A stretch of DNA of 64,000 nucleotides from Paludibacteraceae bacterium (GTDB lineage Bacteria > Bacteroidota > Bacteroidia > Bacteroidales > Paludibacteraceae), in NCBI GenBank assembly GCA_024401435.1, contig JAKSLB010000013.1, positions 1-64,000 of the forward strand, written 5' to 3'. The notes below the pieces were generated by a model, which had not been told where the DNA came from, did not search any database, and saw only the letters and a program-made list of their open reading frames with translations. A program made the position numbers and the translations under genes. Below, in pieces: positions 20,186-40,344 of this stretch (position 1 is its first letter; each line of letters starts with the position of its first letter).

Positions 20186-20215
20186 AATCCACCCACTTGT
20201 GGGTGGATTTTTTTA
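20186..20215 (+). terminator. Rho-independent terminator
   Basis: 11-bp stem (AATCCACCCAC and its complement), 2-base loop, then TTTTTT. Confidence 0.85.
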
Positions 20216-20231
20216 TATTTTGCTTCATAGG

Positions 20232-20244
20232 ACATAGATAAAGT
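20232..20244 (+). promoter_or_regulatory. Late-type TATA box abutting the start codon
   Basis: ACATAGATAAAGT runs into the ATG at 20245. It is a diverged member of the late-box set. Confidence 0.35.
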
Positions 20245-21195
20245 ATGAAAATCAAGATAGATATAGTTGTAGCTACGCAAGGTGATAGATTTGAGATGTT
20301 GAAGAAGATGACTCTTCCTTCACTATTAAAGGCTACGGAAGGCATAGAGGAAATAAATAGAATTGTGCTAGTAGTAAACAATCTCCGTGGAAGAAAGTTG
20401 AAATCCTATGACATATTCAAGAAGAAGTCTGAAAAGATTGAAATCATTGAAGGTGATTCCAAGTATAGGTTGATGAACAAGTACATCCCCTATGTCAATA
20501 CCTATGGTGGTAACAACTATACAATCCATTGTGATGATGACAGATATTACACAAGACAAAAGTTCTTGGACTTTATAGAAGCGGTAAACATATATCCAGA
20601 CAAGCCTATATTCCTAGAAACATATAGGATTATGAAATGGGATGGTAGTTGTGCATCCATAGCAAGTTACCATACAATTTTCCTTGGTATAACTTCCATC
20701 AATGGTAGATGTATTCCAGCCACATCTATGTGGTTAGCACCTCCAAAGTTCTTGAAGAAGTCAATGATTACCAACTATAAGAAGCAAGTGGAAACTGGTT
20801 TCAACGATGATGAACTAATTCTTACAAAGGAAATGTTTGAAAGACACGATGATGCCATATATCTACCTACAAGAAGTTTCAACGATAGTCTAGAAATGGA
20901 TTTCATTCGTGATTCATACAATTTCAAGCCATTTGTTGAGAATAAGAACACCGAGTTGAAGAAACAAGACTTGGTATTCCTTGAACTATATGGCAAGGAT
21001 AGGATATTTGACCCAGGAACCTATTACAAGAATGCGGAGGTTGTTGTAAATGATTGGAATCGCATTCCTATATATCTATTGAAGACATTCTTGGAAAACT
21101 CCTATAACCATTACCTTGAATACAAGTTCATTGATAACAAGCAAACAATTGATGAAAAGGTTATATACCAAGGTTGGAGAATGATTGACATTTAA
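20245..21195 (+). CDS. GT-A type glycosyltransferase-like protein (316 aa)
   Basis: The N-terminus (KIDIVVATQGDRFEMLKKMTLPSLL) resembles the nucleotide-binding start of family 2-type glycosyltransferases. IHCDDDRYY places a DDD metal-binding motif at residues 97-99, as expected for GT-A enzymes. The acceptor domain is unclear. The gene has its own terminator and lies between two fibre genes, so it may glycosylate fibre proteins or host surface sugars. That role is inferred. Length is typical of single-domain enzymes. Confidence 0.6.
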   Translation: MKIKIDIVVATQGDRFEMLKKMTLPSLLKATEGIEEINRIVLVVNNLRGRKLKSYDIFKKKSEKIEIIEGDSKYRLMNKYIPYVNTYGGNNYTIHCDDDRYYTRQKFLDFIEAVNIYPDKPIFLETYRIMKWDGSCASIASYHTIFLGITSINGRCIPATSMWLAPPKFLKKSMITNYKKQVETGFNDDELILTKEMFERHDDAIYLPTRSFNDSLEMDFIRDSYNFKPFVENKNTELKKQDLVFLELYGKDRIFDPGTYYKNAEVVVNDWNRIPIYLLKTFLENSYNHYLEYKFIDNKQTIDEKVIYQGWRMIDI

Positions 21196-21200
21196 CACCA

Positions 21201-21226
21201 AAAGACCACATATCGTGGTCTTTTTT
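21201..21226 (+). terminator. Rho-independent terminator
   Basis: AAAGACCAC pairs with GTGGTCTTT and runs into TTTTTTC. The U-tract ends where the next TATA box begins. Confidence 0.85.
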
Positions 21227-21238
21227 CATATATAAGAT
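21227..21238 (+). promoter_or_regulatory. Late-type TATA box abutting the start codon
   Basis: CATATATAAGAT is followed immediately by the ATG at 21239. There is no ribosome site. Confidence 0.5.
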
Positions 21239-22666
21239 ATGCTAGTATCAAAAGGTAAAATAATTGCTTTAGACAAGGTTAATGTTGATAGTTCTCTATC
21301 TGGTGATGGTAGATGGGGCACATCAAACATAGGTCTTTCACAATCCACTTGGGATAACATCAATAGTAGGGTTCTATCTTCTGACTTTCTAGAATATTCT
21401 GGTAAGATTGATGAAGAAATTCAAAAACTATATGGAATCGGTTCATTTAGCGGTCCTTACACAAGCACCGCAACAATCCCAGAAGAAGAAGCCAAGAATA
21501 CAAAAACCATATACTTGATTGAAGCACAAATAACTGGAAAAGATGTTTACGAAGAATACTTCTATAGCGACACCAAGAGTGCCTATGTATGCTTTGGTGA
21601 AGCCTCCCTTGACCTATCCGTGAAGTTGGACAAGTCGGTGTTTGAATCATTCAAGAGTGAAGAATATGATACCTATACCGCAAATACCGACCAACACCTA
21701 CTATCATTAGATAATAATAAGTTTGATGTTTCAGCTTTTGATGAATACTATACGGATTTCAAAGTATATTCCGCAGATGTTGACCTTAACATTAACAAGC
21801 TATATACCGACAAGTTGGATGTTTCTTCATTCAATGAGTTCAATACCGATTTTGAAACATTCTCTTCAAATATTACACAATCCGCTAATGACTTGTACGA
21901 TACCAAGTTGGATAAGTCCGTGTTCAATACCTTTAGTGGTGATTATAGCACATTTTCCTCTAATATAGTTGAATCAGCCGAAGACTTGTATGATACAAAG
22001 TTGGATAAGTCCCAATTTGTTGTTACCGCATTGGACTTTGTTGATAATAAGACATTGTATGTATCTGGAATTGAAGATGATGTTTCCACATATTCTTCCT
22101 ATGACCTAGTTGATGTGTCTGCAAAGTACACGGAAGGTGATGAAATTGCAAAGATTAATGGCAATTCTATTTATGTGCCTAATGAAAAGACAAGTATACA
22201 CATTAAAGCAGAAGAATCTCATTTTGAAGAGAGACATATTTTTGAAGAAAATGGTATAACAATCATTCCATATATAGATACACTATATAATAGAACTGGT
22301 AAATATATATCAATTTCTCACCCTTCAAGTGGAAAGTATCTAATAACATATAATATTGTGTTTAATGTCCCTCAAACTGACGACCTTGCCAATAAATTTT
22401 GTAATGTATCTCAAATATTATCAACAACTCAAGGTTTTGATTATGCATATATTGATAACATTATTGGTTTTTTACAAACAAATAGTCAATTATATACTAT
22501 AAATCATACACAAATATATGAACCACAAATTTCAGATGATGATGTTGAAAATGGGGCTTTAATTATTATAGACGCTAGTGAATATTCACAATCTGAAAGT
22601 GCGGTTGTCAGTATTGATTGGATTACATTTGAATCTATAACAATTGACATTGTAAAAATTGAATAA
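21239..22666 (+). CDS. Tail fibre with coiled-coil repeats and C1q/TNF-like tip (475 aa)
   Basis: The N-terminal anchor (MLVSKGKIIALDKVNVD) matches that of the 15783 spike. Residues 120-265 contain repeated DLYDTKLDKSVFNTFSGD-like units. The last 155 residues, starting near TSIHIKAEESHFEER, include GKYLITYNIVFNV, a strand pattern typical of C1q/TNF-like jelly rolls that trimerise. This tip is encoded by more AT-rich DNA than the shaft, suggesting a swapped module. I infer a trimeric fibre. Confidence 0.65.
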   Translation: MLVSKGKIIALDKVNVDSSLSGDGRWGTSNIGLSQSTWDNINSRVLSSDFLEYSGKIDEEIQKLYGIGSFSGPYTSTATIPEEEAKNTKTIYLIEAQITGKDVYEEYFYSDTKSAYVCFGEASLDLSVKLDKSVFESFKSEEYDTYTANTDQHLLSLDNNKFDVSAFDEYYTDFKVYSADVDLNINKLYTDKLDVSSFNEFNTDFETFSSNITQSANDLYDTKLDKSVFNTFSGDYSTFSSNIVESAEDLYDTKLDKSQFVVTALDFVDNKTLYVSGIEDDVSTYSSYDLVDVSAKYTEGDEIAKINGNSIYVPNEKTSIHIKAEESHFEERHIFEENGITIIPYIDTLYNRTGKYISISHPSSGKYLITYNIVFNVPQTDDLANKFCNVSQILSTTQGFDYAYIDNIIGFLQTNSQLYTINHTQIYEPQISDDDVENGALIIIDASEYSQSESAVVSIDWITFESITIDIVKIE

Positions 22667-22674
22667 CATAAAAG

Positions 22675-22702
22675 ACCCTTGGATAAGTCCAAGGGTTTTT
22701 CT
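22675..22702 (+). terminator. Rho-independent terminator
   Basis: ACCCTTGG pairs with CCAAGGGT across a 6-base loop, then TTTTTCTC. Confidence 0.75.
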
Positions 22703-22706
22703 CAAT

Positions 22707-22725
22707 CATATATAAAATAAAAAGG
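22707..22725 (+). promoter_or_regulatory. Late-type TATA box with ribosome site
   Basis: CATATATAAAATAA (22707-22720) is followed by AAAGG and the ATG at 22735. Confidence 0.5.
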
Positions 22726-22734
22726 TTTTATACA

Positions 22735-25017: not shown

Positions 25018-25038
25018 AATTTGTTATCTCCTTAAATG

Positions 25039-25068
25039 AAGTCCAACCAATAAGGTTGGACTTTTTTT
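25039..25068 (+). terminator. Rho-independent terminator
   Basis: AAGTCCAACC pairs with GGTTGGACTT across a 5-base loop, then TTTTT, immediately before the next TATA box. Confidence 0.85.
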
Positions 25069-25080
25069 CATACATAATAT
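25069..25080 (+). promoter_or_regulatory. Late-type TATA box abutting the start codon
   Basis: CATACATAATAT is followed immediately by the ATG at 25081. Confidence 0.45.
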
Positions 25081-25671
25081 ATGGCAGAAGAATTCAAGAA
25101 CATAATAAAACTAAATCAATTGGCTAGGTTCAAAGAACTAGCCGATGAAAAATATGTTAACAAGGAAGATGCGTTAGTCAAGACATCCATTGATGATGAC
25201 CTTGTGATATTGAAAGAAGATAAGTTGACAATAAATGTCACTACTACCGACAATACGATATACAAGATAGGTGATTATTATATAAGTGGTGGTGAAGCCG
25301 TACCCCCAAAAAAGATATTTGACAATGATGATGACACCGAAAGACAAGGTAAGTTATGGCTTTATGAAGATGGTACTATGGTCTTGGAAAATGTTGAAAA
25401 GTTCAATCAAATAGAGGTATATTATTCTTTGAAGGGTACAAGTCAAATACAATATTATAAGATTATGACTGAAATGATTGATGCCCCCAAGGAGAACAAT
25501 GGTGTATTCACAATATTCAACCCTAGCGAAAATATATTGGTATACACATTTGAGCAAGTTGAAGTATCTTACAAGTCTAGCGAAGAAGGTTCAACCATCA
25601 CAATAAAGTCATTGGCTGGTGATGAAAGTTTGGTTAAAATTGAAAGAATATATGGCATCTTGGAGAATTAG
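25081..25671 (+). CDS. Short fibre-family protein (196 aa)
   Basis: The N-terminus MAEEFKNIIKLNQLARFKEL is the anchor module shared with the 31062, 33000 and 36400 proteins. The rest is a compact beta-rich domain rather than a long shaft. One base separates its stop from the next ATG, so it is probably co-expressed with the CotH-like protein. I infer a short tail-tip or connector protein. Confidence 0.65.
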   Translation: MAEEFKNIIKLNQLARFKELADEKYVNKEDALVKTSIDDDLVILKEDKLTINVTTTDNTIYKIGDYYISGGEAVPPKKIFDNDDDTERQGKLWLYEDGTMVLENVEKFNQIEVYYSLKGTSQIQYYKIMTEMIDAPKENNGVFTIFNPSENILVYTFEQVEVSYKSSEEGSTITIKSLAGDESLVKIERIYGILEN

Positions 25672-25672
25672 T

Positions 25673-28600
25673 ATGGAATATTTTGATATAGAAAAGTCTA
25701 AAGTAAGAACAAAGGTGAATGGTAAGGTATATTCACATGATTCCATAAGTACAATGTTAATATACAACATTTATCAAAAGGATGATGAAACAAAGACCAT
25801 TTATACATCCAATGAATTAACAACAAACACAATGATGTACTACACATCGTTGAACAATGAACAAGTAAATATAGATAAGAAGTATAAGTTGATAGCCTCC
25901 AAGATAGAATACATATCAAATGGCGAGGACAAGTCTTTCGTTGATGAGAATGTTGCCTTGCAAGCACAAGGTGATTCTACATTGAGCTATTCTAAAAAAT
26001 CCTTGAAGTTAAAGTTTAACAAGAGCCGTAGTTTCTATGGGTTTGATGATAGCAAGACATTTTCATTAAAGAATGATGTAAACCAATGTGCTCATACGGT
26101 AATCAATGGTTGTGGAAACCTTTGGAGACAGATGTTTGAAAGTAGAGATGACTATGACTCATTGCCTACTTGGTTCAAAGAAAGCAAGGCGAAGGGTTCA
26201 TTGAATGGAAAACCAATCAAGGTATACTATGTGTTCACTAACGAAGATGGTGAAGAAATATGTGACTATATGGGTATCTATACGATGTCTACAAAGAAGG
26301 GTGATAGATTAGCTGGTTTCAATTCAAGCAAGAACCCAAATGCTTTCATAGTTTCTATGTCTTGTATAAACAATGCTGGTCGTAGCAATATAGGTTCTGA
26401 AGTATCAAACTTTACAAAGAAATATCCAAGAAAGTTCAACAAGATATGGAATGGTGATGAGGATTCTTCTATCGGTGGATATGAATTTGAAGATGGTGAT
26501 GAAAAATATAGGGATAAGAAGGTACAATTCATAAACAAGGTCATTGATGTGTTTATGAATGAACCAGAAGAAACATTCAAGGAAAAAGTTCAACAATGTT
26601 TTGATGTAGCATCATTCATTGACTTAATAATTTTTACCACTATTTCCGCTAACCCAGACTTGAACAAGAATATGCTAATGTTTGGTGATGACTTCAATGA
26701 AAACGGCAAACTATATGCAATATTGTATGACTATGATGCAGGTTCATTCACTGGTTGGGATTGTTTCGCTGCCGATGGCTCAATACTACCAACCGCTGTA
26801 CCTCAACTACAAGCGTGTTGTTGGGCACCTGACTATGATTGGATGACAAGAATCCATAATACTTTCTTGAATGAAATCAAGGCTAGATATTTCCAACTCC
26901 GTGAAAGAAAGATTCTTGACCCATCAAACATAACAAAACTATTCTTGGATGAATATCGTAATGTGTCAAATATATTACCATTTGATAGAAGTTATGTTGA
27001 TGATGAAGGCAATGTCATTTCCATACCTGAACATTCAACCCGTAAATTTTCTTCTGAAGGAGCACTAGGTACGGACAATATATGTGGCACTAATATCACA
27101 AATATGACACAGACTCTATATGATAAAATTGTAAAGAGATTCATACAAACGGATGAACTTTATGAAAACATAGAAGATTTCTATCCATTTGGCATAATAA
27201 CCGAAATCAACAAGAAGCAAGATGAAATTGTTGTTGATGAAGGTACTACATCGTTGAACATATTTGACTATTTTAATTACAATCCTCTTGGTGATTATAT
27301 CCACAATGAGAATGTCTATAAAAATGTAATCATCCACAATCTTACGGATAGCAATGGAATAATTTCATCAATAGACCTTGATGGTACTATCACTTTTAGT
27401 CAAAATGAAGGCGAAACGAAGATTTCATTGACAACCAATCAATTGCTCAATCCTATTATGGAAGACACAAGAGGTCCAAAAATTGTAGGAAAGGTTGTAA
27501 GTGATACCATAACCATAAAGAGATATACAACCAACGCAACAACGGCAAACATTTCCATAATAAATGGTGAACCATACCAATATGGAAAGGAAGTTATTAT
27601 TGAAAGTATTCCAAATGGAAAGATAAATAGTTGTTCTTGGGTTGTTTCCCCTAATGATACATCATATACCATTGAAGGTAATAGGTTGCGTATAACAACA
27701 AAACCTATGGATGAACATATATCCATTGATTATAAGGGAGTGACGGATGATGGCGAATTTGTGAAAACATTTGAATTTGATACAATAATTCCATCATTAG
27801 TCTTTGACAAGAGCAATTCATCCTATGGCATAAAGTCGGTTCAAAATGTTCCTTATGACGGAATGGTGATTGAAGGTGAATTTAGCGTAGATTTAAACAG
27901 TTGCATAGATGGAGCTACCACAAATGGTTACATCTTTGGTAACAAGAACGGAAAGGCTACATACAAGTCATATATGACAACCGACACACACGATGAAGTT
28001 GGTATATTCTGTATGCTCCGTAGATTCAACGGAAAGACATTGATTAACCCTCAATTCTTCTTTAACAAGAACTTTTCACAAGCCCCATCAACCACACCAA
28101 ATGATGCTGGTGCTTATAGTGGTAGCACTTTCGCATTGAACCATCCATTGGTGTTTGAGGCGGGTGAGAGGATTTACTTCAAGATATGTGAAGCATATTT
28201 CCAAATGAATGATAGGATATATCCTTGGGTATATAAGGGTGTGAAATCCTCAAATATCAAGATAACTCAACCATTGAGATTGTTTGGCTATCTTAATGGT
28301 ACTGCAATAGCAACTTCACCATTCAAGAATTCCTTATATTGGCTAAAGGTTCATAGCAATGGTAAACTTGTATCACATATTGTGCCAAACGACATTGAAC
28401 AATTTGAAACCGATAAGACCTATGCCATAAAGGACTTGGTAACACCTTCTAACAACATTGTTGCAAATCTGAGTCAAACAACTATGGCATTTAGTAGTTA
28501 CTATCCTTGTCCTTCCGTTGGTGGTTTGGGTATAGATAGAAGATTGCCCAACAATGATGATGGCGTTCCATTTAGCAATATTGATATAATAGACACAAAC

Positions 28601-29539
28601 ATCAAGTACGAAACCGACTTGACCTTTGAGATAAAGTTCAAACCAATGTTCTCACAAGAAAAGAATGTGGAAGACCACCGTGGTAGACTTTTCGGTGCTA
28701 TGCAGTTATTGAACAAGAAATGGAACACATCTGGCACACAAGGCATAAGAAACTATGACTTGATATCCTTGATGTGTACGCATACACAAGGTGGAGGTAT
28801 TGTTGCTCGTAATACTGACTTGACTACAAACCCATCTGTGTATAGAAGTTACATAACAACCGAAATGGGTGTTATCTACAAGGCTATATACTCCCCAACA
28901 AAGTTACAAGTGTTTGATGAGAATGATGTATTGTTGAAAGAAGTCAACTTGACCCGTAAACAAGTTGAAACCGATAGCACAATATATCTAGGTGGTCTAA
29001 ATTGTTGTTATAGTGATACCGAACCATTCTATCAAGGTTTCTATGGTTATATCTATAGTTTCAAGATTTCCAATTCTACTGACACATTGCTTGACTTGAC
29101 ACCAAATGAAAAGAAAACTGGTTTCATTGATAGTATAAGTGACAAGGAATTCCTAATACATTCCACACCAAATGCGAATACAAAATCCGCAATGGTTAAG
29201 ATTGACCTTGAAGATGGCATAGATGTTGTAGGAAAGACATATCAATTGTCATTGACCGAAGATAGTTACAATGATGTTGTTTCTAGTTCAAAGTTCATAG
29301 CACCTTCACCAAACCTTGATGTCCTTACCTATATAGATATGGGAATCAACAACCATAATATCAAGAGTGAGTTCATTTGGGAAGTGGATGACAACAAGAA
29401 TGAATTTGCAACCATAGACAATAACGGATTGCTTACAATCTATGAGTCATCAAACCAAAAGGAAGTTGTGGTCAAGTGCTATTGGTCTTTGGATAAGTCA
29501 ATATGCGATACAAAGACAATAACAATAACCTATGAATGA
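25673..29539 (+). CDS. CotH-kinase-like tail protein with lectin and Ig-like domains (1288 aa)
   Basis: The ATG at 25673 follows the upstream stop by one base. Upstream in-frame starts lie inside that gene. Residues 95-360 resemble CotH protein kinases: QGDSTLSYSKKSLKLKF (about 99-115; the family consensus is R-G-N-S-T/S-W then P-K-K-x-Y), YMGIYTM (199-205), DLNKN (D329) and YDYDAGSF (D353, D355), which match the catalytic Asp positions of the family. ConA/LamG-like segments follow near residues 730-860 and 975-1140. The last 80 residues look like a bacterial Ig-like domain. I infer a virion tail protein that may phosphorylate or bind a surface target. Kinase activity is unproven. Confidence 0.7.
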   Translation: MEYFDIEKSKVRTKVNGKVYSHDSISTMLIYNIYQKDDETKTIYTSNELTTNTMMYYTSLNNEQVNIDKKYKLIASKIEYISNGEDKSFVDENVALQAQGDSTLSYSKKSLKLKFNKSRSFYGFDDSKTFSLKNDVNQCAHTVINGCGNLWRQMFESRDDYDSLPTWFKESKAKGSLNGKPIKVYYVFTNEDGEEICDYMGIYTMSTKKGDRLAGFNSSKNPNAFIVSMSCINNAGRSNIGSEVSNFTKKYPRKFNKIWNGDEDSSIGGYEFEDGDEKYRDKKVQFINKVIDVFMNEPEETFKEKVQQCFDVASFIDLIIFTTISANPDLNKNMLMFGDDFNENGKLYAILYDYDAGSFTGWDCFAADGSILPTAVPQLQACCWAPDYDWMTRIHNTFLNEIKARYFQLRERKILDPSNITKLFLDEYRNVSNILPFDRSYVDDEGNVISIPEHSTRKFSSEGALGTDNICGTNITNMTQTLYDKIVKRFIQTDELYENIEDFYPFGIITEINKKQDEIVVDEGTTSLNIFDYFNYNPLGDYIHNENVYKNVIIHNLTDSNGIISSIDLDGTITFSQNEGETKISLTTNQLLNPIMEDTRGPKIVGKVVSDTITIKRYTTNATTANISIINGEPYQYGKEVIIESIPNGKINSCSWVVSPNDTSYTIEGNRLRITTKPMDEHISIDYKGVTDDGEFVKTFEFDTIIPSLVFDKSNSSYGIKSVQNVPYDGMVIEGEFSVDLNSCIDGATTNGYIFGNKNGKATYKSYMTTDTHDEVGIFCMLRRFNGKTLINPQFFFNKNFSQAPSTTPNDAGAYSGSTFALNHPLVFEAGERIYFKICEAYFQMNDRIYPWVYKGVKSSNIKITQPLRLFGYLNGTAIATSPFKNSLYWLKVHSNGKLVSHIVPNDIEQFETDKTYAIKDLVTPSNNIVANLSQTTMAFSSYYPCPSVGGLGIDRRLPNNDDGVPFSNIDIIDTNIKYETDLTFEIKFKPMFSQEKNVEDHRGRLFGAMQLLNKKWNTSGTQGIRNYDLISLMCTHTQGGGIVARNTDLTTNPSVYRSYITTEMGVIYKAIYSPTKLQVFDENDVLLKEVNLTRKQVETDSTIYLGGLNCCYSDTEPFYQGFYGYIYSFKISNSTDTLLDLTPNEKKTGFIDSISDKEFLIHSTPNANTKSAMVKIDLEDGIDVVGKTYQLSLTEDSYNDVVSSSKFIAPSPNLDVLTYIDMGINNHNIKSEFIWEVDDNKNEFATIDNNGLLTIYESSNQKEVVVKCYWSLDKSICDTKTITITYE

Positions 29540-29540
29540 A

Positions 29541-29567
29541 GCAATCAACTGCTAAAGACAGTTGATT
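29541..29567. terminator. Hairpin shared by the CotH-gene end and the TnpB end
   Basis: TCAACTG and CAGTTGA pair across a 7-base loop, followed by TTTTCCC on the plus strand. The hairpin overlaps the last codons of the minus-strand TnpB gene, so it can be both the fibre terminator and the element's right-end structure. Confidence 0.5.
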
Positions 29568-31019: not shown

Positions 31020-31049
31020 AAAAAGTCCAACCATTGAGTTGGACTTTTT
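31020..31049 (+). terminator. Rho-independent terminator
   Basis: AAAAGTCCAAC pairs with GTTGGACTTTT across a 6-base loop, then TTTTTC, just before the next TATA box. Confidence 0.8.
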
Positions 31050-31061
31050 CATATATAAGAT
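31050..31061 (+). promoter_or_regulatory. Late-type TATA box abutting the start codon
   Basis: CATATATAAGAT is followed immediately by the ATG at 31062 and is identical to the box at 21227. Confidence 0.5.
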
Positions 31062-32930
31062 ATGGCAGAAGAATACAAAAACCTAGTAAAACTTGAACAA
31101 TTGGCTACATTCAAAAGATTAGCCGATGAAACATACACAAACAAGAAGGAACTTGATTCCTATTACACCAAGGAACAAGCGGATGAAAAGTTCATTTCTG
31201 CACACCAGTCCCTTGAAGAATATCAAAAGACCGCTGATGCGGACGCTAAATATGCAACCATAGTTGAAGATGAAAAGAAATTGATGATTTCCTCTTTCAA
31301 CGATTATAGTGCAAAACTTGATGTTGAAATTGATACTAAAGTACCTTATTCGGCTATGACCGCATATCAACCAAAGGGTGATTATGTTTCAGCTACCGAT
31401 GTATCCTATATTAGTGGTGTGGTTGACAATAAGGTTAATAGGCAAGCCTACGAAGAATTTACCGCAAGTCTACCAGAAACATACTTAACCAAGGAAAGTG
31501 CGGACACATTGTATCAACCAACGGGTGACTATGCAACCAACACCGAAGTAAACAAGAAATTGTATACCTCCGCATTCAATGAATATTCGGCAAGTCTTCC
31601 CTCTACATACCTCACAAAGGAAAGTGCGGACACATTGTATCAACCTATCGGTGATTACGCAACAAATGACAAGGTAACTTATGTAAGTGGTGAAGTTGAC
31701 AAGAAACTTGTAAAGAGTGACTTTGACACCTATTCCGCAAGTCTTCCTTCTACATACCTCACAAAGGAAAGTGCTGATACACTATATCAACCAACGGGTA
31801 ACTATGTTTCTTCTACCCAACTAGCCGATTATTATACAACGGCTCAAGCCGATGCTAAATTCTTGACTGCTCATCAATCTCTTGAAGAATATCTAACTAC
31901 CGCAGATGCACAAGCTACTTATGCAACAAAGGAAGATAACAACAAGAAACTTGATACCACAGATTTCAACACCTATACCGCTGGTATCCGTGAAGAACTT
32001 GATGATGTAGTTACCAATGAAGAACTTGAAGAAACCTTGGAAGAATATCAACCAAAGGGTGACTACGCATTGGATAGTGACTTGGAATATGTAAGTGGTG
32101 AAGCTAATAAGAAACTTTACACCTCCGCATTCAATACTTATTCCGCAAGCCTTCCTTCTACATACTTTACCAAGGAAAGTGCCGATACATTGTATCAATC
32201 CCTTGAAGGTATGACCGCATACCAAGTTACTGGTGACTATGCAACAAATACAAACTTGAACTATGTAAGTGGCGAAGTTGACAATAAACTATTCATTTCT
32301 TCCTTCAATACATATTCTTCAGACCTACAAACCGCATTGTTCACCAAGGCTAGTGCCGATACATTGTATCAACCTATCGGTGATTATGTTACCTCTACCG
32401 AATTGAACAAATACTATGACAAGACCGCATCTGATGGAAAGTATCTAACACAAACTTCGGCTGATACTATATACACCAAGTTGGAAGATATGTCATTGTA
32501 TCAAACTAAAGCCGATATGGTAAATTATGCTACCGAATTGGAAATGCAATCTGCAAATCATCAAATTTCCGCAATTCAAAATATAATCCATAGTGATGAC
32601 GAGACACTTGACACAATCCAAGAAATAGTTGACTTTGCAAAGCACAATAAAGACTTGATTGATGGTATCTTGACAAACAAGCAAGACAAGTCCGCTATGA
32701 ACTCATATTATACAAAGAATGAAGCCAATGATTTGTATAATGGCAAGGTAGATACTACAACTTATGAAACCTTTACTGGTACTACCCTTCCTAATGATTA
32801 TTACAAAAAGACCGAAGTCTATAGCATTACGGAAGCCGATGAAACATTTGTTGCTCACGAACAAATATCAATAGCAACGGATGCTCAAATTAGTGCAATG
32901 TTTGGGTTCACAACTGAAGAAAATGCATAA
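31062..32930 (+). CDS. Long repetitive tail fibre (622 aa)
   Basis: The N-terminal anchor (MAEEYKNLVKLEQLATFKRL) belongs to the four-gene family. The body is made of repeated units of about 45 residues containing YLTKESADTLYQPTGDYAT followed by VSGEVDKKL and TYSASLPST. Residues 480-545 are nearly identical to the 22735 fibre. The C-terminus is short and acidic, without a clear receptor domain. It is probably a shaft-type fibre. Confidence 0.7.
   Translation: MAEEYKNLVKLEQLATFKRLADETYTNKKELDSYYTKEQADEKFISAHQSLEEYQKTADADAKYATIVEDEKKLMISSFNDYSAKLDVEIDTKVPYSAMTAYQPKGDYVSATDVSYISGVVDNKVNRQAYEEFTASLPETYLTKESADTLYQPTGDYATNTEVNKKLYTSAFNEYSASLPSTYLTKESADTLYQPIGDYATNDKVTYVSGEVDKKLVKSDFDTYSASLPSTYLTKESADTLYQPTGNYVSSTQLADYYTTAQADAKFLTAHQSLEEYLTTADAQATYATKEDNNKKLDTTDFNTYTAGIREELDDVVTNEELEETLEEYQPKGDYALDSDLEYVSGEANKKLYTSAFNTYSASLPSTYFTKESADTLYQSLEGMTAYQVTGDYATNTNLNYVSGEVDNKLFISSFNTYSSDLQTALFTKASADTLYQPIGDYVTSTELNKYYDKTASDGKYLTQTSADTIYTKLEDMSLYQTKADMVNYATELEMQSANHQISAIQNIIHSDDETLDTIQEIVDFAKHNKDLIDGILTNKQDKSAMNSYYTKNEANDLYNGKVDTTTYETFTGTTLPNDYYKKTEVYSITEADETFVAHEQISIATDAQISAMFGFTTEENA
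32499..32681 (+). repeat. Segment duplicated from or into the 22735 fibre gene
   Basis: Counterpart of 23788-23970. It encodes the AKTDMVNYATELEMQSANH-like block and the following helix region. Confidence 0.8.
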
Positions 32931-32954: not shown

Positions 32955-32988
32955 TTTGCCCTCCATAGTTGTTTCTATGGAGGGCAAA
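32955..32988 (+). terminator. Perfect 14-bp hairpin without a plus-strand U-tract
   Basis: TTTGCCCTCCATAG pairs with its exact complement across a 6-base loop, but AT-rich sequence rather than T follows. It may still end transcription or protect the 3' end. Confidence 0.55.
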
Positions 32989-32999
32989 ATATATAAAAT
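32989..32999 (+). promoter_or_regulatory. Late-type TATA box abutting the start codon
   Basis: ATATATAAAAT-type box followed immediately by the ATG at 33000. Confidence 0.5.
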
Positions 33000-35393
33000 A
33001 TGAGCGAAGAATATAAAGATATAATCAAGTTAGACCAATTGAAGACATTTAAAGACCTTCTTGATGATACATTTATTTCAAAGAAAAAGGAAGAAAATTA
33101 CGACACCGCCTATGACTTTGCGGATACGCATAAAGGTTCTTTGAATTTCAAGCAAGGTGAAGAAAGTGTAGGCACTTTTGATGGTACTACGGATTTAGAT
33201 ATTCAACTAGGTGCTACTATAAAGAATGAAGAAGGTGAAGATGTTGTAAAGCCTTTGGATGAGGTTATTACCAAGTTATTTGATGAAAAGCAAGACAATC
33301 TTGACACCACACCTAGAGGACAAACGGAAGAAAGAGAAAAGTATCAAGAAAAATTGAAAAACTTCGCTATCAACATTTTCGGTAATTCAGACACCGCAAA
33401 TTCATTGAACGCAAAGCGTGTTGAATGGACGACCGATTGGGATGATGTTCGTGAAGATGGTTTCTATGCTGGACTACAAAGCCCAAATCATCCAACTACG
33501 GGTGCTGAAGCTAAATATCATAGACCCACCGATTCTTATAATAGTGGTTTCTTAATTGTTTCCTCTTGTCTACAACCATCTGCCGATAGTACACAAATCT
33601 TTAAATTCGTATTCCAGATATTCTTCAATGCTTATGGTATATGGATTAGAAGGGATAAATCCTACTATACTACGGATATGGTATTTAAGAGAGATACGGG
33701 ATTTACAAATTGGGTAAAATGTACAACATTTAACACAACAATTTCCGTAGGTTCTACCGATACTCCAGTTTATATTGATAAAAATTCCGTTGTTACAGGT
33801 TCCACAGATACATCAACCGCTACAAACTACAAGCCAGTAACCAAAATCAAGGTATCCGTTGGTGGTACTGGATTGAACACAATAAAAAAGGGTTCTTACT
33901 TAATAGGTAACGATACAAATGCAATTCAAGTGAAAACACCTGATGAAGTATTGGTTGACATAAACGCACAAGAAAAACTTACATTTGACACTTTACCAAC
34001 CGAAGGTTCTACAAATCCAGTCACATCAAACGGCATTAAGTCCTATGTTGATACTATGGTTTCTGGTCAAGCGAAGTTTGTAGATGCACTTCCTACAATT
34101 GGTGAAGAAAACATAGTCTATTATGTTCCACAAGCAAATGCTGATAATACCGATACAATATATGATGAATACATTTGGTGTGACAATTCTTTTATAAAGG
34201 TTGGTGATAAGTCATTGAACCTAAATGACTATGTTTCAACACAAAGGTTTGAAGAAACCGAAGAAATGATGTCAAGAAGCGTTGACCAATTGAGAATGGT
34301 AACGCAAGAAACATCAGAAGCCATTGATGAAACCAAGGAAATGGTGGATTCAAACATGACGGATACTATTGAACAAGGTTTCTATATTTGTGATTCTAAC
34401 CAAAATGTGGCTATGAAATATGATGAAGAAGGTCTAGACTTCGCAAAGATTTCAAACCACGCAATAGAGGTGTTGAAGGAATCCTCATTGACAAAGGAAG
34501 AATGTCTATCAAAAAGCCATCAATATGTTGGTCAAAGAGTATTGTTGGATAAGAAATACTCCTTCAATTCAAACTATGTTATGAAATTGAAATCTGGCGG
34601 TCAAGCAACTACAACATATGGAGATTATATCTTCCAAGGATTTGCTGGAGGAAAATGTAGTATATTTGACCTAAAGAACAAGAATACTACTCCATTGGCT
34701 ACAATAAATCTTGAACCTATAGGCACATCAGAAGAACACCATAACAATTCGCTTATGTTTATGGATGGTGTTTTCTATGAACTTGGTGATGAATTCCCAT
34801 TGCTTATTAGCCAAGGCTCTAATGCCTCATTGAGTTCTCCTTGTTCATTTGTATATCGCATTACAAGGAATGGTGATTCTTGGAATGCAACATTGGTATC
34901 TACAATATATGTTGACCAAACGGACTTTGAAAGTCATAATCTAGAAAAGACTGAAACCGCATATACTTGTACATATTGCAAGGAATACAACAAGTTGGTC
35001 GTATGTTCATTACAACATCGTTCTACAAACACCAGCACAATAGCAACGAATAAGTTCATTACTACATTATATGATATGCCAAACTTCAAGAACAATGAAA
35101 ATGTCACATTGAATTGGTCTAATGCATATAATCAGTTTACTACCTTACACAATAGATGGCTTGGTATGCAAGCACAACTTTGTGTAGGCGACTATTTCAT
35201 TAGAAGTGTTGGATATGGTACGGAAAGTGCTCCCAATATGTTGGAATTCTATTCATTGAAGATGAATACAAGGGTTTCTCTTGTTCCTTTGAATGATGTA
35301 ACAAGATATGAAATGGAAGGAATTATGTATTCAGATGAATACGGTCTAATGATTGTTGATTCAAACGGTGATTGCTACAAATTGGAGTTTTAA
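33000..35393 (+). CDS. Tail fibre with phage-type GGTG motif and beta-rich C-terminal domain (797 aa)
   Basis: The N-terminal anchor (MSEEYKDIIKLDQLKTFKDL) is of the shared family. Near residues 280-310, VGGTGLNTIKKGSYLIGND matches the GGTG fibre motif common in phage tail fibres. Residues 410-465 are a helical linker. The last 300 residues are rich in short strands and loops (GKCSIFDLKNKNTTP, NRWLGMQAQLCVGDYF), compatible with a beta-propeller receptor domain. Followed after 2 bases by the next gene. Confidence 0.7.
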   Translation: MSEEYKDIIKLDQLKTFKDLLDDTFISKKKEENYDTAYDFADTHKGSLNFKQGEESVGTFDGTTDLDIQLGATIKNEEGEDVVKPLDEVITKLFDEKQDNLDTTPRGQTEEREKYQEKLKNFAINIFGNSDTANSLNAKRVEWTTDWDDVREDGFYAGLQSPNHPTTGAEAKYHRPTDSYNSGFLIVSSCLQPSADSTQIFKFVFQIFFNAYGIWIRRDKSYYTTDMVFKRDTGFTNWVKCTTFNTTISVGSTDTPVYIDKNSVVTGSTDTSTATNYKPVTKIKVSVGGTGLNTIKKGSYLIGNDTNAIQVKTPDEVLVDINAQEKLTFDTLPTEGSTNPVTSNGIKSYVDTMVSGQAKFVDALPTIGEENIVYYVPQANADNTDTIYDEYIWCDNSFIKVGDKSLNLNDYVSTQRFEETEEMMSRSVDQLRMVTQETSEAIDETKEMVDSNMTDTIEQGFYICDSNQNVAMKYDEEGLDFAKISNHAIEVLKESSLTKEECLSKSHQYVGQRVLLDKKYSFNSNYVMKLKSGGQATTTYGDYIFQGFAGGKCSIFDLKNKNTTPLATINLEPIGTSEEHHNNSLMFMDGVFYELGDEFPLLISQGSNASLSSPCSFVYRITRNGDSWNATLVSTIYVDQTDFESHNLEKTETAYTCTYCKEYNKLVVCSLQHRSTNTSTIATNKFITTLYDMPNFKNNENVTLNWSNAYNQFTTLHNRWLGMQAQLCVGDYFIRSVGYGTESAPNMLEFYSLKMNTRVSLVPLNDVTRYEMEGIMYSDEYGLMIVDSNGDCYKLEF

Positions 35394-35395
35394 TT

Positions 35396-36358
35396 ATGGG
35401 TTTTGCTATTATATCTAAAAATATGGATTTTCGTGGTGCTTCGTTGGGTAAGATTACTCCAGTGAAGAATGTACCAGTTATTGAATTTCACATAAAGGAA
35501 ATTGATGAAATTTTAGGTTCTCAACAAATGGAAATAGATTATCTACCTTCAAATACAAGTCAAAGAGAAGTTACTTGGTCTATAGTTGAAGGTGAAGAAT
35601 ATGCTATAATTAATCCAAATGACGGATGGGTTAACACAATAGCCAACGGAACTATTGTCGTAAGGGCGGTTTCCGTATATAATCAAGACATCTATGATGA
35701 AATTTCGGTAAATGTGAACACTAATGATGTCATTGACATTGATTGGATTGGTACTTGTGGTGGTAACTATCTTGACCTTGGTATTAAAGTGCCTGAAATC
35801 AATTCCTTTGACTTGGAAATGGTTGCTCATAGTAGAAACACTTGGGTTGCGTTCGGTACTAGAAAAGCAGCCACTACTAATGTGTTCCAAGGCATTTATT
35901 CATCGGCAACTAATGCTATTTCCTTTAGAACCACTTGGAATGAATATCTAAATGAATATAAGTGGAATTCTTATAATGGAAGTTCATTCAATAAAGATGA
36001 TGTGATTAGGTTCTTTGCAAATAGAGTTGACAATTCCAATATTTTGTATGTAAATGATAAACAAATCGCAAACACTAATACTACTGGAACTGTAAATGCC
36101 GAACCAATTGACAACATCTATCTATTTGACATAAATCAAGGTGGTGTTCCTTCTCAAAAGAAGGATGATTTCGCTTGCATTAGGAAATGTGTCATTACCA
36201 ATACAAGCAATGAAGTCATTATGGACTTAAAGCCTGTATTGTACAAGAATATACCTTGTTTCTATGATAGTGTACAATCAAGGTTCTTGTATATTCAAGG
36301 CGATGAACCGACTTACTACTTATTGGATGGCGAAGAACTATTCTACGCACACGATTAA
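35396..36358 (+). CDS. Ig-like plus ConA-like lectin tail protein (320 aa)
   Basis: The ATG at 35396 lies just after the upstream stop. The longer frame from 35372 overlaps that gene. Residues 20-115 look like a bacterial Ig-like (BIg2) domain (TWSIVEGEEYAIINPNDGWV, TIVVRAVSVYN). Residues 120-320 resemble concanavalin-like lectins of gut phages, ending in DLKPVLYKNIPCFYDSV and a FLYIQG strand. I infer a carbohydrate-binding tip co-expressed with the 33000 fibre. Confidence 0.65.
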   Translation: MGFAIISKNMDFRGASLGKITPVKNVPVIEFHIKEIDEILGSQQMEIDYLPSNTSQREVTWSIVEGEEYAIINPNDGWVNTIANGTIVVRAVSVYNQDIYDEISVNVNTNDVIDIDWIGTCGGNYLDLGIKVPEINSFDLEMVAHSRNTWVAFGTRKAATTNVFQGIYSSATNAISFRTTWNEYLNEYKWNSYNGSSFNKDDVIRFFANRVDNSNILYVNDKQIANTNTTGTVNAEPIDNIYLFDINQGGVPSQKKDDFACIRKCVITNTSNEVIMDLKPVLYKNIPCFYDSVQSRFLYIQGDEPTYYLLDGEELFYAHD

Positions 36359-36361
36359 AAG

Positions 36362-36387
36362 AAACACCCCACAATTGGGGTGTTTTT
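36362..36387 (+). terminator. Rho-independent terminator
   Basis: AAACACCCC pairs with GGGGTGTTT across a 6-base loop, then TTC and the next TATA box. Confidence 0.85.
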
Positions 36388-36399
36388 CATATATAAAAT
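36388..36399 (+). promoter_or_regulatory. Late-type TATA box abutting the start codon
   Basis: CATATATAAAAT is followed immediately by the ATG at 36400. Confidence 0.5.
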
Positions 36400-39342
36400 A
36401 TGAGTGTGAAATATAAAGATTTAGTAAAACTAGAACAATTACAAACATACAAGACTCTTTCTGATAATACATATGCACCAAAGGGTGATTACCTTGTAGC
36501 GGATGACATTACTGGAAAACAAGACAAGGTTGATATGAGTTCCTATTATACCAAGGAACAAGCGGATAATAAATTCCTTACCGCACATCAATCCCTTGAA
36601 GAATACCAAAAGACCGCTGGTATGACCGCCTATGCGTTAAAAAGTGATATTCCAACCGACCTTTTCACCAAGGAAAGTGCCGACACTTTATATCAACAAA
36701 AGGGAAACTATGTTTCTTCTACGGAACTAAACAATTATTATACAACGGCACAAGCCGATGCTAAATTCTTGACCGCACATCAATCCCTTGAAGAATATCA
36801 AAAAACAGAAGATGCCGATGCAAAATATGCAACCAAGGGTGAAATTCCAACCGACCTTTTTACCAAGGCTAGTGCTGATACTCTTTATATTTCAACCGCA
36901 AAGGAAGAAAACTATGATAGTGCATACACACACGCATCTTCCCACACGGCAACATTGACATTCAAGCAAAAGGATACCACAATAGGTACATTTGATGGTA
37001 CTACCGCCTTGGAGGTTGAGGTCGGTGGTTCTACACCAACAGATAATGGTGATTACATTTATAGAAAGACCGATGAATTTGATGGTTGGTACAACATCAC
37101 TAATGAAGCACAAGAGATTGAAGGCAAGAGTGGTGTAAATGTTTCTAGTGACACAGAAAACAAGAAAACTACTATTTCATTGACAGAAGAAGTCCAAGAA
37201 AAGTTGTCCAAGATGGATGAACAACTTGAAATAAGTGGTGGAAATGGTATTTCAATAACAAGTGCCGATGGTAAGTTGGTCATAGCCTCCAATGGAATAG
37301 CGAACATTGAAACCGATTCCACATTGAGCGGAAATGGAACTACAACATCACCTTTGGGCATAAACAAGGACAATGAACTTGAAATAAGCGGTGGAAATGG
37401 TATTTCCGTAACTACTTCTGATGGCAAGTTGGTCATTTCTTCTGATGGTATAGCAACAATTGAAACTGACACCACATTGAGTGGTGATGGTTCTAGTGAA
37501 TCCCCATTAGGAATAAATGCGGATACACAAATGGAATTGGTTGAGGGTGAAGGCATCTCCATAAAGAAGAATGAGGATGAAACTCAACTTGAAATTTCCG
37601 TAAGTGGTATAGCTACAAAGTCCTATTATGAAATCGCAAAGGAAAATGGTTGTGAACATACTGCAACAATAAATGGTAAGGTTGTAAGCGGTTATGCCCA
37701 CGGAAAGGGTACTATCGTTGATGGCGAATTTATGACAGTTGTCGGTAAATACAACCTACAATATCCAGAAATTGGCACTTTATTTGCGGTCGGTGATGGT
37801 GATGAAACCACAAGAAGGAATACTTTTAGTGTTGCTCACGATTCAATCATATTTGGTGGCAATGGTTCTACTGTTGATGGTACAAATGAACACATCATTT
37901 GTTTTGGTAAGACACACGATATAGATGATTGTAGAATGCTTACCATATTCGGTGAAGGCAACTCCGCTACAAATGTTGAATACACACTAATCAATGGTAA
38001 GGAAAACAAGTTTAGTGGCTATCTATATAGCTTTATGAATGGTTCTAACAATAGTACGAAGGATTCTAAATACAACATAATCAATGGTAACTCAAATTCC
38101 TCCACCAATATGAACCATTCTATCATTGCAGGTAACGGAAATGCTGTAAGCGGTGAAACAAGTCTTGAATATAGTACCATATTTGGTTCTAACAATAGAG
38201 TTGGTGGCATATCCCACAACTACATCAATGGTGACCAGAACTCCGCATTGGGTCAATTCAACCAAGTCCTTGGTCAAAGCAATCTAGCAATTGGTGGATT
38301 GAACTTTGTCATCGGTGTCGTAAATAGTGCTATCGGTGATAACGCAAATATGCTACTAGGCTCTGGAAACCTTTCCACCAACAAGGGTTGTATCTTGATG
38401 GGTAACAACTTGACATCAAATGCCGAAATGCAAATCATACTTGGTGCAAAGAACGACATTACCGATATGGTTGATGGTTTGTACACGGAAGATTCAGAAT
38501 ACTATTCCACAAATACTGGTGTTCTTCCAATGTTCGTATTGGCTGGTGATTCAAAGGGTTATAAGAATTCTCATACCGTCTATAAGGATGGTCAGATTAG
38601 ATTAAGATTTGACAATCCAAACTATGGTGCTGAAGGGGTATACGATACCGATGAAGTCCTATTGAACTATCCATACTTCCAAAAGCAAAAGAGCATAGGT
38701 GATGTTGTTGTAAGTTCTAGCGGTTATTTCTATGAACCAATTAACGGAACTAATACAACCATAGTAACCGCATTTGCCGAAGATGGTCATAAGACTTTCA
38801 AGGTCAATGTAACTCAATCTATGGAAGATTCCCCAGTTATCGTTACTGGTGAAGGTAACATAATGGTTCAAAGTAGTACGGATGCCGAAACAAGTAAACC
38901 CAAGTTTACAATTACACTTGATGATGTTGCAGCAACCGAATACTTTGGTGATGACCTTGTAGGTGTAGACTTTGAAACTAGAAAGATTTCCGCAACGGAA
39001 ACCCTATCCGCAATGTTGCAAAAGCCAAGTGCTCTATATGAAACAACCGCAAGTGAAACCCCATACGCACAATATAGTGCAAACAAGGTTGTACTTGATG
39101 AAGCCGTTATTGACACAAGTGTAAGTGTAAAGAACGGAAGTGCATATAGTAGCTCAAATGAATGGTCAAAGATGGTTCTACCAACAACTGGCGAATACAT
39201 CACCAACGATATGTTGGCAAATGGCTTGAAGATGATGATTGTTCCACCAGATTATGATGTAACAACCGCACCTGCGAACACATTCATATTCAAGGTCAAG
39301 CCAACAAGTACCGATACAGATACCGACACCGAAAATACATAA
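36400..39342 (+). CDS. Tail fibre with adhesin-like beta-roll (980 aa)
   Basis: The anchor MSVKYKDLVKLEQLQTYKTL is of the four-gene family. Residues 30-165 hold the QADAKFLTAHQSLEEYQK shaft units. Residues 275-405 contain a tandem pair of about 50-residue units (LEISGGNGISITSADGKLV). Residues 440-700 are beta-roll repeats such as NYINGDQNSALGQFNQVLGQ, similar to YadA-type adhesin heads. The C-terminal 280 residues are a distinct beta-rich region that ends in a Thr/Asp-rich tail (TDTDTDTENT). I infer a receptor-binding fibre. Confidence 0.7.
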   Translation: MSVKYKDLVKLEQLQTYKTLSDNTYAPKGDYLVADDITGKQDKVDMSSYYTKEQADNKFLTAHQSLEEYQKTAGMTAYALKSDIPTDLFTKESADTLYQQKGNYVSSTELNNYYTTAQADAKFLTAHQSLEEYQKTEDADAKYATKGEIPTDLFTKASADTLYISTAKEENYDSAYTHASSHTATLTFKQKDTTIGTFDGTTALEVEVGGSTPTDNGDYIYRKTDEFDGWYNITNEAQEIEGKSGVNVSSDTENKKTTISLTEEVQEKLSKMDEQLEISGGNGISITSADGKLVIASNGIANIETDSTLSGNGTTTSPLGINKDNELEISGGNGISVTTSDGKLVISSDGIATIETDTTLSGDGSSESPLGINADTQMELVEGEGISIKKNEDETQLEISVSGIATKSYYEIAKENGCEHTATINGKVVSGYAHGKGTIVDGEFMTVVGKYNLQYPEIGTLFAVGDGDETTRRNTFSVAHDSIIFGGNGSTVDGTNEHIICFGKTHDIDDCRMLTIFGEGNSATNVEYTLINGKENKFSGYLYSFMNGSNNSTKDSKYNIINGNSNSSTNMNHSIIAGNGNAVSGETSLEYSTIFGSNNRVGGISHNYINGDQNSALGQFNQVLGQSNLAIGGLNFVIGVVNSAIGDNANMLLGSGNLSTNKGCILMGNNLTSNAEMQIILGAKNDITDMVDGLYTEDSEYYSTNTGVLPMFVLAGDSKGYKNSHTVYKDGQIRLRFDNPNYGAEGVYDTDEVLLNYPYFQKQKSIGDVVVSSSGYFYEPINGTNTTIVTAFAEDGHKTFKVNVTQSMEDSPVIVTGEGNIMVQSSTDAETSKPKFTITLDDVAATEYFGDDLVGVDFETRKISATETLSAMLQKPSALYETTASETPYAQYSANKVVLDEAVIDTSVSVKNGSAYSSSNEWSKMVLPTTGEYITNDMLANGLKMMIVPPDYDVTTAPANTFIFKVKPTSTDTDTDTENT
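37225..37515 (+). repeat. Tandem duplication of about 145 bp within a fibre gene
   Basis: Two diverged copies encode LEISGGNGIS...TLSGxGxxxSPLGIN units, and a third, more diverged one follows. Confidence 0.7.
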
Positions 39343-39345
39343 TAT

Positions 39346-40287
39346 ATGAGTTTACACTTCGGTAATTATGAAATTGGTGAGATATACTTTTCTAACGCAA
39401 GTAGAGAGGTATATCCAATCGGTTCTATACATTTTAACGATAACCTATTATTCATTGATGAGAATGAACCACTTCCACCAATTGATGAACCTACGGCAGT
39501 CAATACTTATGTCAAGGAAGAAAACAAGATTCAAGTTACCAACATTGTAACCTCTACTACTGAAACATACCTTTCATTGTTCACATTTAGAAGTGAAATC
39601 GTTGATAGTGATGTTGTAGAACTAAACTCTATGAGACTTTGGTTTCACAATCCAACATTGAACATATATTCAGCAGAAAACTACCAATGGAAGAATATGT
39701 ACATCATAGAATTCTATGATACCGATGGCAATCAATTGACCGAGGAAAACATTAAAAAACTTGACCTCAACCATATGGTGATTGCTGGAAAACCTTTATC
39801 TTGTAACCTCACAACAAGAGAATTGAGAGCCGATGTTATGGGCGACAATATGAACATTGGTGCTTGTAAGGTTGGCGATGATGACTTCTATTCAGTAAAG
39901 TTCAACTTTGAAGGTGTAACCTTGAAGAAGGAATGCATATATGGATTTGTTATCAAGGATGTCTATAACATCATAGAAAAGGATGATAACACATACCTAT
40001 TCATCAACCCCAATGTCATTTCGCAAACCGCACTTGAAAAGAACTTCAATGGTTCTAACATATTTGATTCAAACCAAGGTGATACTATAAGAATTTATCC
40101 TAGTTGGTTCTATGATGAAAGTGGAAATATTAATCCTTGGGTGACGGAAGAAGAAATGCAACCATACAAGGGAAACTTCATAACCAATAAGCCTGTAATC
40201 CGTGCATTGTTTGAATTTGATTCTGGTTATGAATGGTGCTATCCTATTGGTAGATTCATGAACGATGTAGTTAAAAACAATGCTTAA
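39346..40287 (+). CDS. Fibre-family protein with short beta anchor and Pro-rich linker (313 aa)
   Basis: The N-terminus (SLHFGNYEIGEIYFSNAS) is a short beta anchor like those of the 44618 and 45318 proteins, followed by a linker PLPPIDEP near residue 42. The remaining domain is beta-rich, with no recognised family. It lies 3 bases after the 36400 gene, so the two are probably cotranscribed. Confidence 0.6.
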   Translation: MSLHFGNYEIGEIYFSNASREVYPIGSIHFNDNLLFIDENEPLPPIDEPTAVNTYVKEENKIQVTNIVTSTTETYLSLFTFRSEIVDSDVVELNSMRLWFHNPTLNIYSAENYQWKNMYIIEFYDTDGNQLTEENIKKLDLNHMVIAGKPLSCNLTTRELRADVMGDNMNIGACKVGDDDFYSVKFNFEGVTLKKECIYGFVIKDVYNIIEKDDNTYLFINPNVISQTALEKNFNGSNIFDSNQGDTIRIYPSWFYDESGNINPWVTEEEMQPYKGNFITNKPVIRALFEFDSGYEWCYPIGRFMNDVVKNNA

Positions 40288-40317
40288 AAAAACACCCACG
40301 AAATGTGGGTGTTTTTT
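40287..40317 (+). terminator. Rho-independent terminator
   Basis: AAAAACACCCAC pairs with GTGGGTGTTTTT across a 5-base loop, then TC and the next TATA box. Confidence 0.85.
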
Positions 40318-40344
40318 CATATATAAATAAAGAATATATAAGGA
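40318..40344 (+). promoter_or_regulatory. T4-type late promoter with ribosome site
   Basis: The exact T4 late consensus TATAAATA is at 40322-40329. AAGGA (40340-40344) and the ATG at 40352 follow at normal spacing. This is the clearest leadered late promoter in the window. Confidence 0.6.

Follow-up and report, generated by a model that had tools for sequence, protein, structure and literature searches.

The stretch of DNA analysed here, the window, comprises bases 1–64000 of contig C35 (78,706 bases), which belongs to a Paludibacteraceae bin of 3.83 Mb in 204 contigs, and the element in question is a short AT-only box found directly before the start codons of phage genes, including several fibre genes. 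At five junctions (21201–21239, 25039–25081, 31020–31062 and 36362–36400 on the plus strand and 58128–58087 on the minus strand) a hairpin, a T-run, the box and an ATG follow one another in that order, as the initial annotation had described for both strands, and at each of the five none of 200 shuffles folded as well as the native hairpin (Table 1). The form then given for the box, (C)ATATATAARAT, holds at three of these junctions; the boxes before ATG 25081 (at 25070, ATACATAATAT) and on the minus strand (58098–58091, CTATATAA) depart from it, and the general form of box and start is ATANATAA-NN-T-ATG. We call such a box flush, and refer to it as the late box. Further flush boxes in the window, before ATGs 20245, 33000, 39346 and 44618, had been missed, as had the fixed spacing, the lack of room for a Shine–Dalgarno site, the genes with leaders and the second flush box described below. 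The fibre genes starting at 25081, 31062, 33000 and 36400 are alike from Met1 and then diverge, the other three being 67% identical to the first over 30 amino acids (aa), 52% over 29 and 37% over 49. This likeness speaks for the ATG that follows the box being the true start, and it lends some support to the earlier idea that each such gene is a self-contained cassette.

The set analysed consisted of C35 and four other contigs of the bin (C172, C13, C120 and C123; 401,280 bases together), treated as one phage because they bear different T4-type genes: a baseplate gp6-like gene on C35, PolB-like and DnaB-like genes on C172, a gp15-like gene on C13 and a gp46-like gene on C123. They are probably parts of one giant T4-like phage, presumably a single molecule. 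Within the bin, ATATATAANNTATG occurs 33 times compared with 3 for the reversed pattern, with 32 of the 33 on the five contigs, and ATANATAANNTATGR occurs 48 times compared with 2, with 45 on the five contigs; in a search of 15 further genomes of the genus, each gave 1–7 copies of ATANATAANNTATGR and 0–5 of its reversal.

Genes were predicted mechanically (ATG to stop, at least 60 aa, longest first), giving 521 genes, of which 520 have 60 bases upstream. The octamer ATANATAA begins exactly at −11 from the ATG in 47 of the 520 genes, no other offset is represented by more than seven, the mean over 49 farther offsets is 1.2 genes, and T occupies −1 in 46 of the 47. What had been taken for a feature of fibre genes is thus found genome-wide, before genes of dissimilar families. 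With its NNTR tail (ATANATAANNTR) the box occurs 69 times on C35 and C172 (20.2 ± 4.6 in 20 shuffles, largest 34), 61 of these outside genes; on all five contigs there are 122 copies, of which 97 lie mostly outside predicted genes, compared with 53 and 25 in the reversed sequence, and the sequence outside predicted genes amounts to 10.3% of the five contigs. An equal frequency inside genes, which the initial annotation had held would speak against a promoter, was therefore not observed. Without this tail, the 8-mer ATANATAA shows no over-representation (136 versus 121 ± 10 in shuffles), its only over-represented features being the position and the NNTR tail. No −35 element was seen for the late box, the 61 intergenic ATANATAANNTR sites of C35 and C172 conserving only a weak bias at −13 and −12. 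The exact T4 octamer TATAAATA is present at 40322, as had been reported, but with five copies in the window versus 9.8 expected from shuffles it is not above chance, and it was dropped as a motif. A scan of 35001–55000 for sigma70-type promoters was also set aside, with 89 found and 95 expected.

A second flush motif, TATATTT, precedes 33 genes, starting at −13 in 23 of them and at −12 in the other 10. By terminator prediction, a terminator adjoins 12 of the 47 flush late boxes, 7 of the 33 TATATTT boxes and 11 of 439 other starts (Fisher p = 1e-7 for late boxes versus other genes). The fusion of terminator and box emphasized in the initial annotation is thus over-represented, but 35 of the 47 flush late boxes have no adjoining terminator. 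On C172, an 806-aa frame (56890–59310, minus strand) consists of two similar halves, with an internal late box (58811) just before the second half; it looks as if a unit of box plus gene had been duplicated and then fused.

Leaders and gene classes

Leader lengths were deduced by assuming an RNA start at the A that lies eleven bases past the first base of the box. They fall into two groups, of 0–4 nucleotides (nt) or of at least 11, and seldom between: 0 nt in 46 cases, 1–4 nt in seven, 5–10 nt in one, 11–20 nt in 18 and 21–49 nt in 12. Thirty further genes bear ATANATAANNTR 22 or more bases upstream, with 11–42 bases from the deduced +1 to the ATG. A Shine–Dalgarno-like site is present in 27 of these 30 leaders (control windows of the same length: mean 4.8, maximum 11 in 500 draws), and a stricter Shine–Dalgarno pattern in 20 (control mean 2.9, maximum 8). 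A flush box leaves no room for such a site before the ATG, and Shine–Dalgarno-like sites precede 3 of the 47 flush late genes, none of the 33 TATATTT genes and 267 of 440 other genes, although the rarity in flush genes is partly built in, since the box occupies the Shine–Dalgarno position.

At C172:80744/80761 two divergent genes share one box, with 16 bp between their ATGs (CAT AAG TTATATATAA GGT ATG). Two other divergent pairs were noted: at C172:35768/35789, where 20 bp separate the ATGs, a single TTATATATTT can be read on one strand as a late box and on the opposite strand as TATATTT, and at C13:29332/29342 the two ATGs are just 9 bp apart.

The two boxes head different kinds of gene. A PHROG scan of 46 of the 47 late-box proteins and the 33 TATATTT proteins, in which one protein may match several families (the gp15-like one, for example), gave 20 families for the late-box set, of which 14 have virion or packaging names, three are endonucleases and three are unnamed. 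The virion families include portal, head maturation protease, head closure, head–tail adaptor, tail sheath, tail sheath stabiliser, tail tube, baseplate wedge and DNA end protector. The gene behind the minus-strand junction, previously counted among the fibre genes, has a weak HNH match instead. Among the 25 of 44 TATATTT families displayed are homing and HNH endonucleases, helicases, DNA methyltransferases, Mom-like and SbcD-like proteins, dCMP deaminase and a clamp loader, and none of these 25 has a virion name.

Eighteen proteins, one encoded in the window (56920–57414, plus strand) and 17 on C172, C13, C120 and C123, begin with a tag resembling MKKVLLTENEYxKVxxILNE, which ends in L-x-E in 17 of them. 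Eleven of their genes have a late box (six flush, five leadered) and one a TATATTT box (Fisher p 5e-6). In T4, internal head proteins have capsid-targeting peptides at their N-termini, and the substrates of gp21 are cleaved after L/I-x-E (PMC9026906). By analogy, and given the head maturation protease family under the late box, the tagged proteins may be late internal head proteins.

Table 1. Hairpins and boxes of the window, with the start codon or fold that belongs to each; folds in kcal/mol
Feature	Position	Strand	Remarks
Second flush box TATATTT at -13	10597..10603	+	ATG 10610
Late box, leadered	15322..15329	+	ATG 15349
Late box ATACATAA, leadered	15758..15765	+	ATG 15783; leader holds AAGGA
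Late box ATAGATAA, flush	20234..20241	+	ATG 20245
Terminator-like hairpin and T-run adjoining box	21201..21227	+	fold -12.9, z -5.6
Late box ATATATAA, flush	21228..21235	+	ATG 21239
Late box ATATATAA, leadered	22708..22715	+	ATG 22735; leader holds AAGG
Terminator-like hairpin and T-run adjoining box	25039..25069	+	fold -16.7, z -5.2
Late box ATACATAA, flush	25070..25077	+	ATG 25081
Terminator-like hairpin and T-run adjoining box	31020..31050	+	fold -21.6, z -8.1
Late box ATATATAA, flush	31051..31058	+	ATG 31062
Late box ATATATAA, flush	32989..32996	+	ATG 33000; preceding hairpin without T-run, fold -24.8, z -7.2
Terminator-like hairpin and T-run adjoining box	36362..36388	+	fold -17.0, z -4.6
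Late box ATATATAA, flush	36389..36396	+	ATG 36400
Late box ATACATAA, flush	39335..39342	+	ATG 39346; TAA of the box is the stop codon of the preceding gene
ATATATAA including TATAAATA (40322)	40319..40326	+	upstream of ATG 40352; breaks the NNT rule, uncounted
Late box ATATATAA, flush	44607..44614	+	ATG 44618
Second flush box TATATTT at -13	47625..47631	+	ATG 47638
Second flush box TATATTT at -12	49070..49076	+	ATG 49082
Late box ATACATAA, leadered	53382..53389	-	ATG 53356; leader without Shine–Dalgarno-like site
Late box ATATATAA, leadered	56895..56902	+	ATG 56920; leader holds AAGGA
Variant box CTATATAA, flush, after hairpin and T-run	58091..58098	-	ATG 58087; fold -21.9, z -5.8; outside the 47
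Second flush box TATATTT at -13	60759..60765	-	ATG 60752

Interpretation of the boxes

The analysis shows directly the positions and spacing of the boxes, the two groups of leaders, the gene classes and a sigma-like gene; from these we infer that both boxes are promoters, where their RNAs would start, which sigma factor would read each and when. It is likely, in our judgement, that ATANATAA-NN-T-A is a late promoter that gives rise to leaderless late mRNAs in most box genes and is probably read by a gp55-like sigma factor. RNA polymerase bearing this phage sigma factor would most likely recognize the box as a −10 element that stands alone, without a −35 element. In most box genes the starting A would be the A of the ATG, giving a leaderless mRNA, and in the others, with the box 22 or more bases upstream, there would be a short leader with a Shine–Dalgarno-like site; for the leaderless genes the prediction is that the 5' ends of transcripts coincide precisely with the A of the ATG. 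Where the preceding gene has an intrinsic terminator, terminator, promoter and start codon would be packed together with no spare bases. Because the genes under TATATTT include the sigma gene as well as genes for replication and DNA modification, this box probably marks an earlier class, which would make the sigma factor that switches on the late class. The candidate for that factor is a gp55-like protein encoded at C13:27781–28359 (phrog_234, E 1.5e-6; hhalign probability 88.6, E 2.6e-6, over 73 columns to eight gp55 proteins), whose gene is itself headed by a TATATTT box, at −12; a clamp-loader family is also present, in the TATATTT class. With mostly virion families under the box and a gp55-like protein encoded, the initial proposal of a late promoter appears to have been right in kind, and leaderless late transcription from a T4-like promoter fused to the start codon is strongly suggested.

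A number of points weigh against this interpretation. The match to gp55 is modest; the gp55-like protein matches no Pfam family, no Sigma70_r2 match was found on C13, 7 of the 14 control genomes were also positive for phrog_234, and a hydrophobic C-terminus, which gp55 homologues reportedly keep (PMC2988020), is not evident in the gp55-like protein. A gp45-type clamp (PF02916) gave no match in the bin, in a search in which one control genome was positive, below the cut-off. The deduced spacing from box to start is one base shorter than that of T4 (−13 to −6; PMC2988020). PHROG matches are lacking for at least 26 of the 46 late-box proteins, and three of the families matched are endonucleases. 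Three of the five contigs (C13, C120 and C123) were chosen for carrying the box, part of the Shine–Dalgarno contrast is built in as stated above, and close relatives for a test of conservation were not found in our searches: a megablast search of phages with 25,000 bases of the window gave no match, and no relative was confirmed among viral contigs searched with the baseplate protein, the sigma-like protein, PolB and two late proteins, or among genome contigs searched with the helicase.

The box could instead act at the RNA level, as an A/U-rich ribosome site for a host that hardly uses Shine–Dalgarno sites, with transcripts beginning farther upstream. The fixed distance from box to ATG would suit such a signal, as would the A-rich starts without Shine–Dalgarno sites of the host genes and the dependence of initiation in Bacteroidota on upstream A's (PMC6847099). 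A translation signal would, however, be expected only beside the ATG, and the same box with its NNTR tail lies 22 or more bases upstream of 30 genes, which argues for a promoter, the more so as a Shine–Dalgarno-like site intervenes in 27 of them; host genes, moreover, lack the box (four copies of ATANATAA in 84 upstream regions, none at −11), and terminators adjoin it in the phage. We regard this explanation as improbable. About equally small is the chance that both boxes are promoters for the host polymerase with host sigma factors, the flush box then being not specifically late and a phage sigma factor needless. The weakness of the sigma-like match would be in keeping with this, and TATATTT agrees with the −7 element of Bacteroidota promoters (PMC7366714) in its TAnnTTT portion; in comparison with the sigma-ABfr promoter as a whole, which has TAnnTTTG at −7 and TTTG near −33, the following G is not conserved and TTTG or TTG at −40 to −30 is not clearly enriched. 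The late box, on the other hand, is unlike the −7 element, gene classes are split by box, and the 48 copies of ATANATAANNTATGR in the bin far exceed the counts in the other genomes of the genus.

Reading of the box by a phage-encoded RNA polymerase, as in phiKZ or T7-like phages, is suggested by the TATG that follows it, since TATG is also found in the late promoters of phiKZ, where its G is the start site (PMC5312081). We think this very improbable: a search for RNA polymerase beta (PF00562, one subunit family) found no match on the five contigs and matches only on C128 and C139, the latter being another phage-like contig of the bin, without the late box. A search for single-subunit RNA polymerase gave no match, but no control genome was positive either, so that this negative carries no weight. 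On C139 (203,429 bases) the beta match lies in a 1025-aa frame, with beta'-like neighbours recognized by eye only, and no TATA peak at start codons was seen in the 80 kb examined. Least credible of all is that the repeated junction is a mere trace of duplicated fibre genes in AT-rich DNA. The N-terminal module common to the genes at 25081, 31062, 33000 and 36400 and the resemblance of the hairpins at 25081 and 31062 would be expected from duplication, but the remaining stems are not alike, the genes headed by the box are dissimilar and spread over five contigs, and boxes are far fewer in shuffled and reversed sequence.

Comparison with other phages, the host and known systems

Several other genes of the phage contigs deserve mention. 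Amid the fibre and adjoining genes are transposase-like genes of the phrog_506 family (29552–30814 and 55426–56787, both on the minus strand), with another at C172:43534–44751 (minus strand), and a gene for a 1287-aa protein with a CotH kinase domain (25676–29539, plus strand; PF08757, E 6.7e-17). The product of 46253–47128 (plus strand) resembles both the uncultured 634-kb phage LR745206 and stretches of Wolbachia phage WO annotated as patatin family (28–34% identity), and C35:71377–72837 (minus strand) strongly matches phrog_850, described as an RNA-binding protein (E 1.2e-113).

Starts of TATA relative to the ATG were counted in genes of at least 80 aa. In the phage of the window there are 37 at −10 and at −8 and about 30 at −13 and −12, over a baseline of 7.3 ± 3.3. 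A peak is also present in a 375,692-base phage contig from a genome of the same genus (G147:C113; 33 at −12, baseline 3.6 ± 1.9) and in LR745206 (250 of 635 kb; 40 at −10, baseline 5.9 ± 2.4), and crAss001 (100 of 103 kb) shows a small excess, five at −8 and at −6 over 1.0 ± 0.9; none was seen in PTm1 (150 of 225 kb), T4 (66 of 169 kb) or P-SSM2 (50 of 252 kb, only 31 genes). In G147:C113, 30 of 429 genes have the hexamer TATAAT at −12, compared with seven at the next most frequent offset, and 17 have AGAACT at −22, and in LR745206 TATATA lies at −10 in 27 of 298 genes. Since the box of G147:C113 differs, the trait in common is one of geometry, not of sequence; the two phages are not wholly unrelated, their PolB proteins (that of the window phage being on C172) sharing 32% identity over 242 residues. 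G147:C113 reads better with TAG as a sense codon (coding fraction 0.78 versus 0.63 in a 136-kb part).

We tentatively propose, at somewhat less than even odds, that flush leaderless promoters are an architecture common to several huge phages, with an early and a late class both starting at the A of the ATG, in a host phylum whose ribosomes hardly use Shine–Dalgarno sites. Each gene would then be a cassette of promoter plus open reading frame that could be moved without a leader, and one symmetrical box could serve two divergent genes. Late promoters fused to the start codon, as proposed for the phage of the window, would in themselves provide a rule, applicable to sequence alone, for finding late genes and transcription units and for fixing the true start codons in huge phages that have not been cultured. 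As regards the host, CysS of the bin contig C183 is 94% identical to that of a Paludibacteraceae metagenome-assembled genome from goat omasum, and 84 predicted genes of C1 and C183 show A-rich starts and no Shine–Dalgarno enrichment; no 16S was found in the bin. Shine–Dalgarno-like sites precede 200 of 477 genes in the phage of the window compared with 35 in a control interval, 45 versus 44 of 429 in G147:C113 and 14 versus 29 of 298 in LR745206. The use of such sites by the phage but not by the bin's own genes would mean either that the bin is the wrong one or that the phage makes the sites usable; a search for bS21 as an explanation gave no match over the cut-off.

The proposed late mRNAs would resemble other leaderless mRNAs of bacteria and phages in having no room for a ribosome site and a start codon at the deduced 5' end. 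In Bacteroides thetaiotaomicron about 3.7% of 5' untranslated regions are shorter than 10 nt (PMC7366714), and in Flavobacterium johnsoniae 87% of predicted transcripts have leaders of more than 10 nt (PMC6847099), whereas in the phage of the window whole regulons would be flush. The late promoters of phiKZ and AR9 are similarly short motifs at the start site, and the phage transcripts are called often leaderless by the authors (PMC5312081); they differ in being read by phage multisubunit polymerases, of which the PF00562 search found no sign on the five contigs, and in AR9 the untranslated regions are 26–491 nt long (PMC5312081). The text of a paper on Jug phages (PMC12363816) does not contain the word 'promoter'. 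Symmetric bidirectional promoters of bacteria show that pseudo-symmetrical sequence can drive divergent genes (PMC12825309, PMC10268837). In our case one palindromic box would be shared by two genes with 16 bp between their ATGs.

Late transcription of the T4 type, a classic system, yields leadered mRNAs with Shine–Dalgarno sites, and our literature searches of open-licence papers found no description of flush or leaderless promoters of this type. The likeness to T4 late promoters (TATAAATA; gp55, gp33 and gp45; PMC2988020) extends to an AT-only 8-bp box without a −35 element, to service of virion genes (14 of 20 family names) and perhaps to a gp55-type sigma factor, the modest match on C13 being the candidate, and the [N]ATANATA of the window phage resembles TATAAATA. 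It differs in that the fifth base is free, the box is one base nearer the deduced start and the exact octamer is not enriched, and T4's own TATAAATA boxes, in the 10 cases found at 75–117 kb, lie at −22 to −36 of the ATG and never near −11. Since the box departs from the T4 consensus, we refrain from classing the system as a member of the T4 late system, although it would work like one. If our interpretation is right, a T4-like giant phage with late promoters fused to the start codon would represent a distinct solution.

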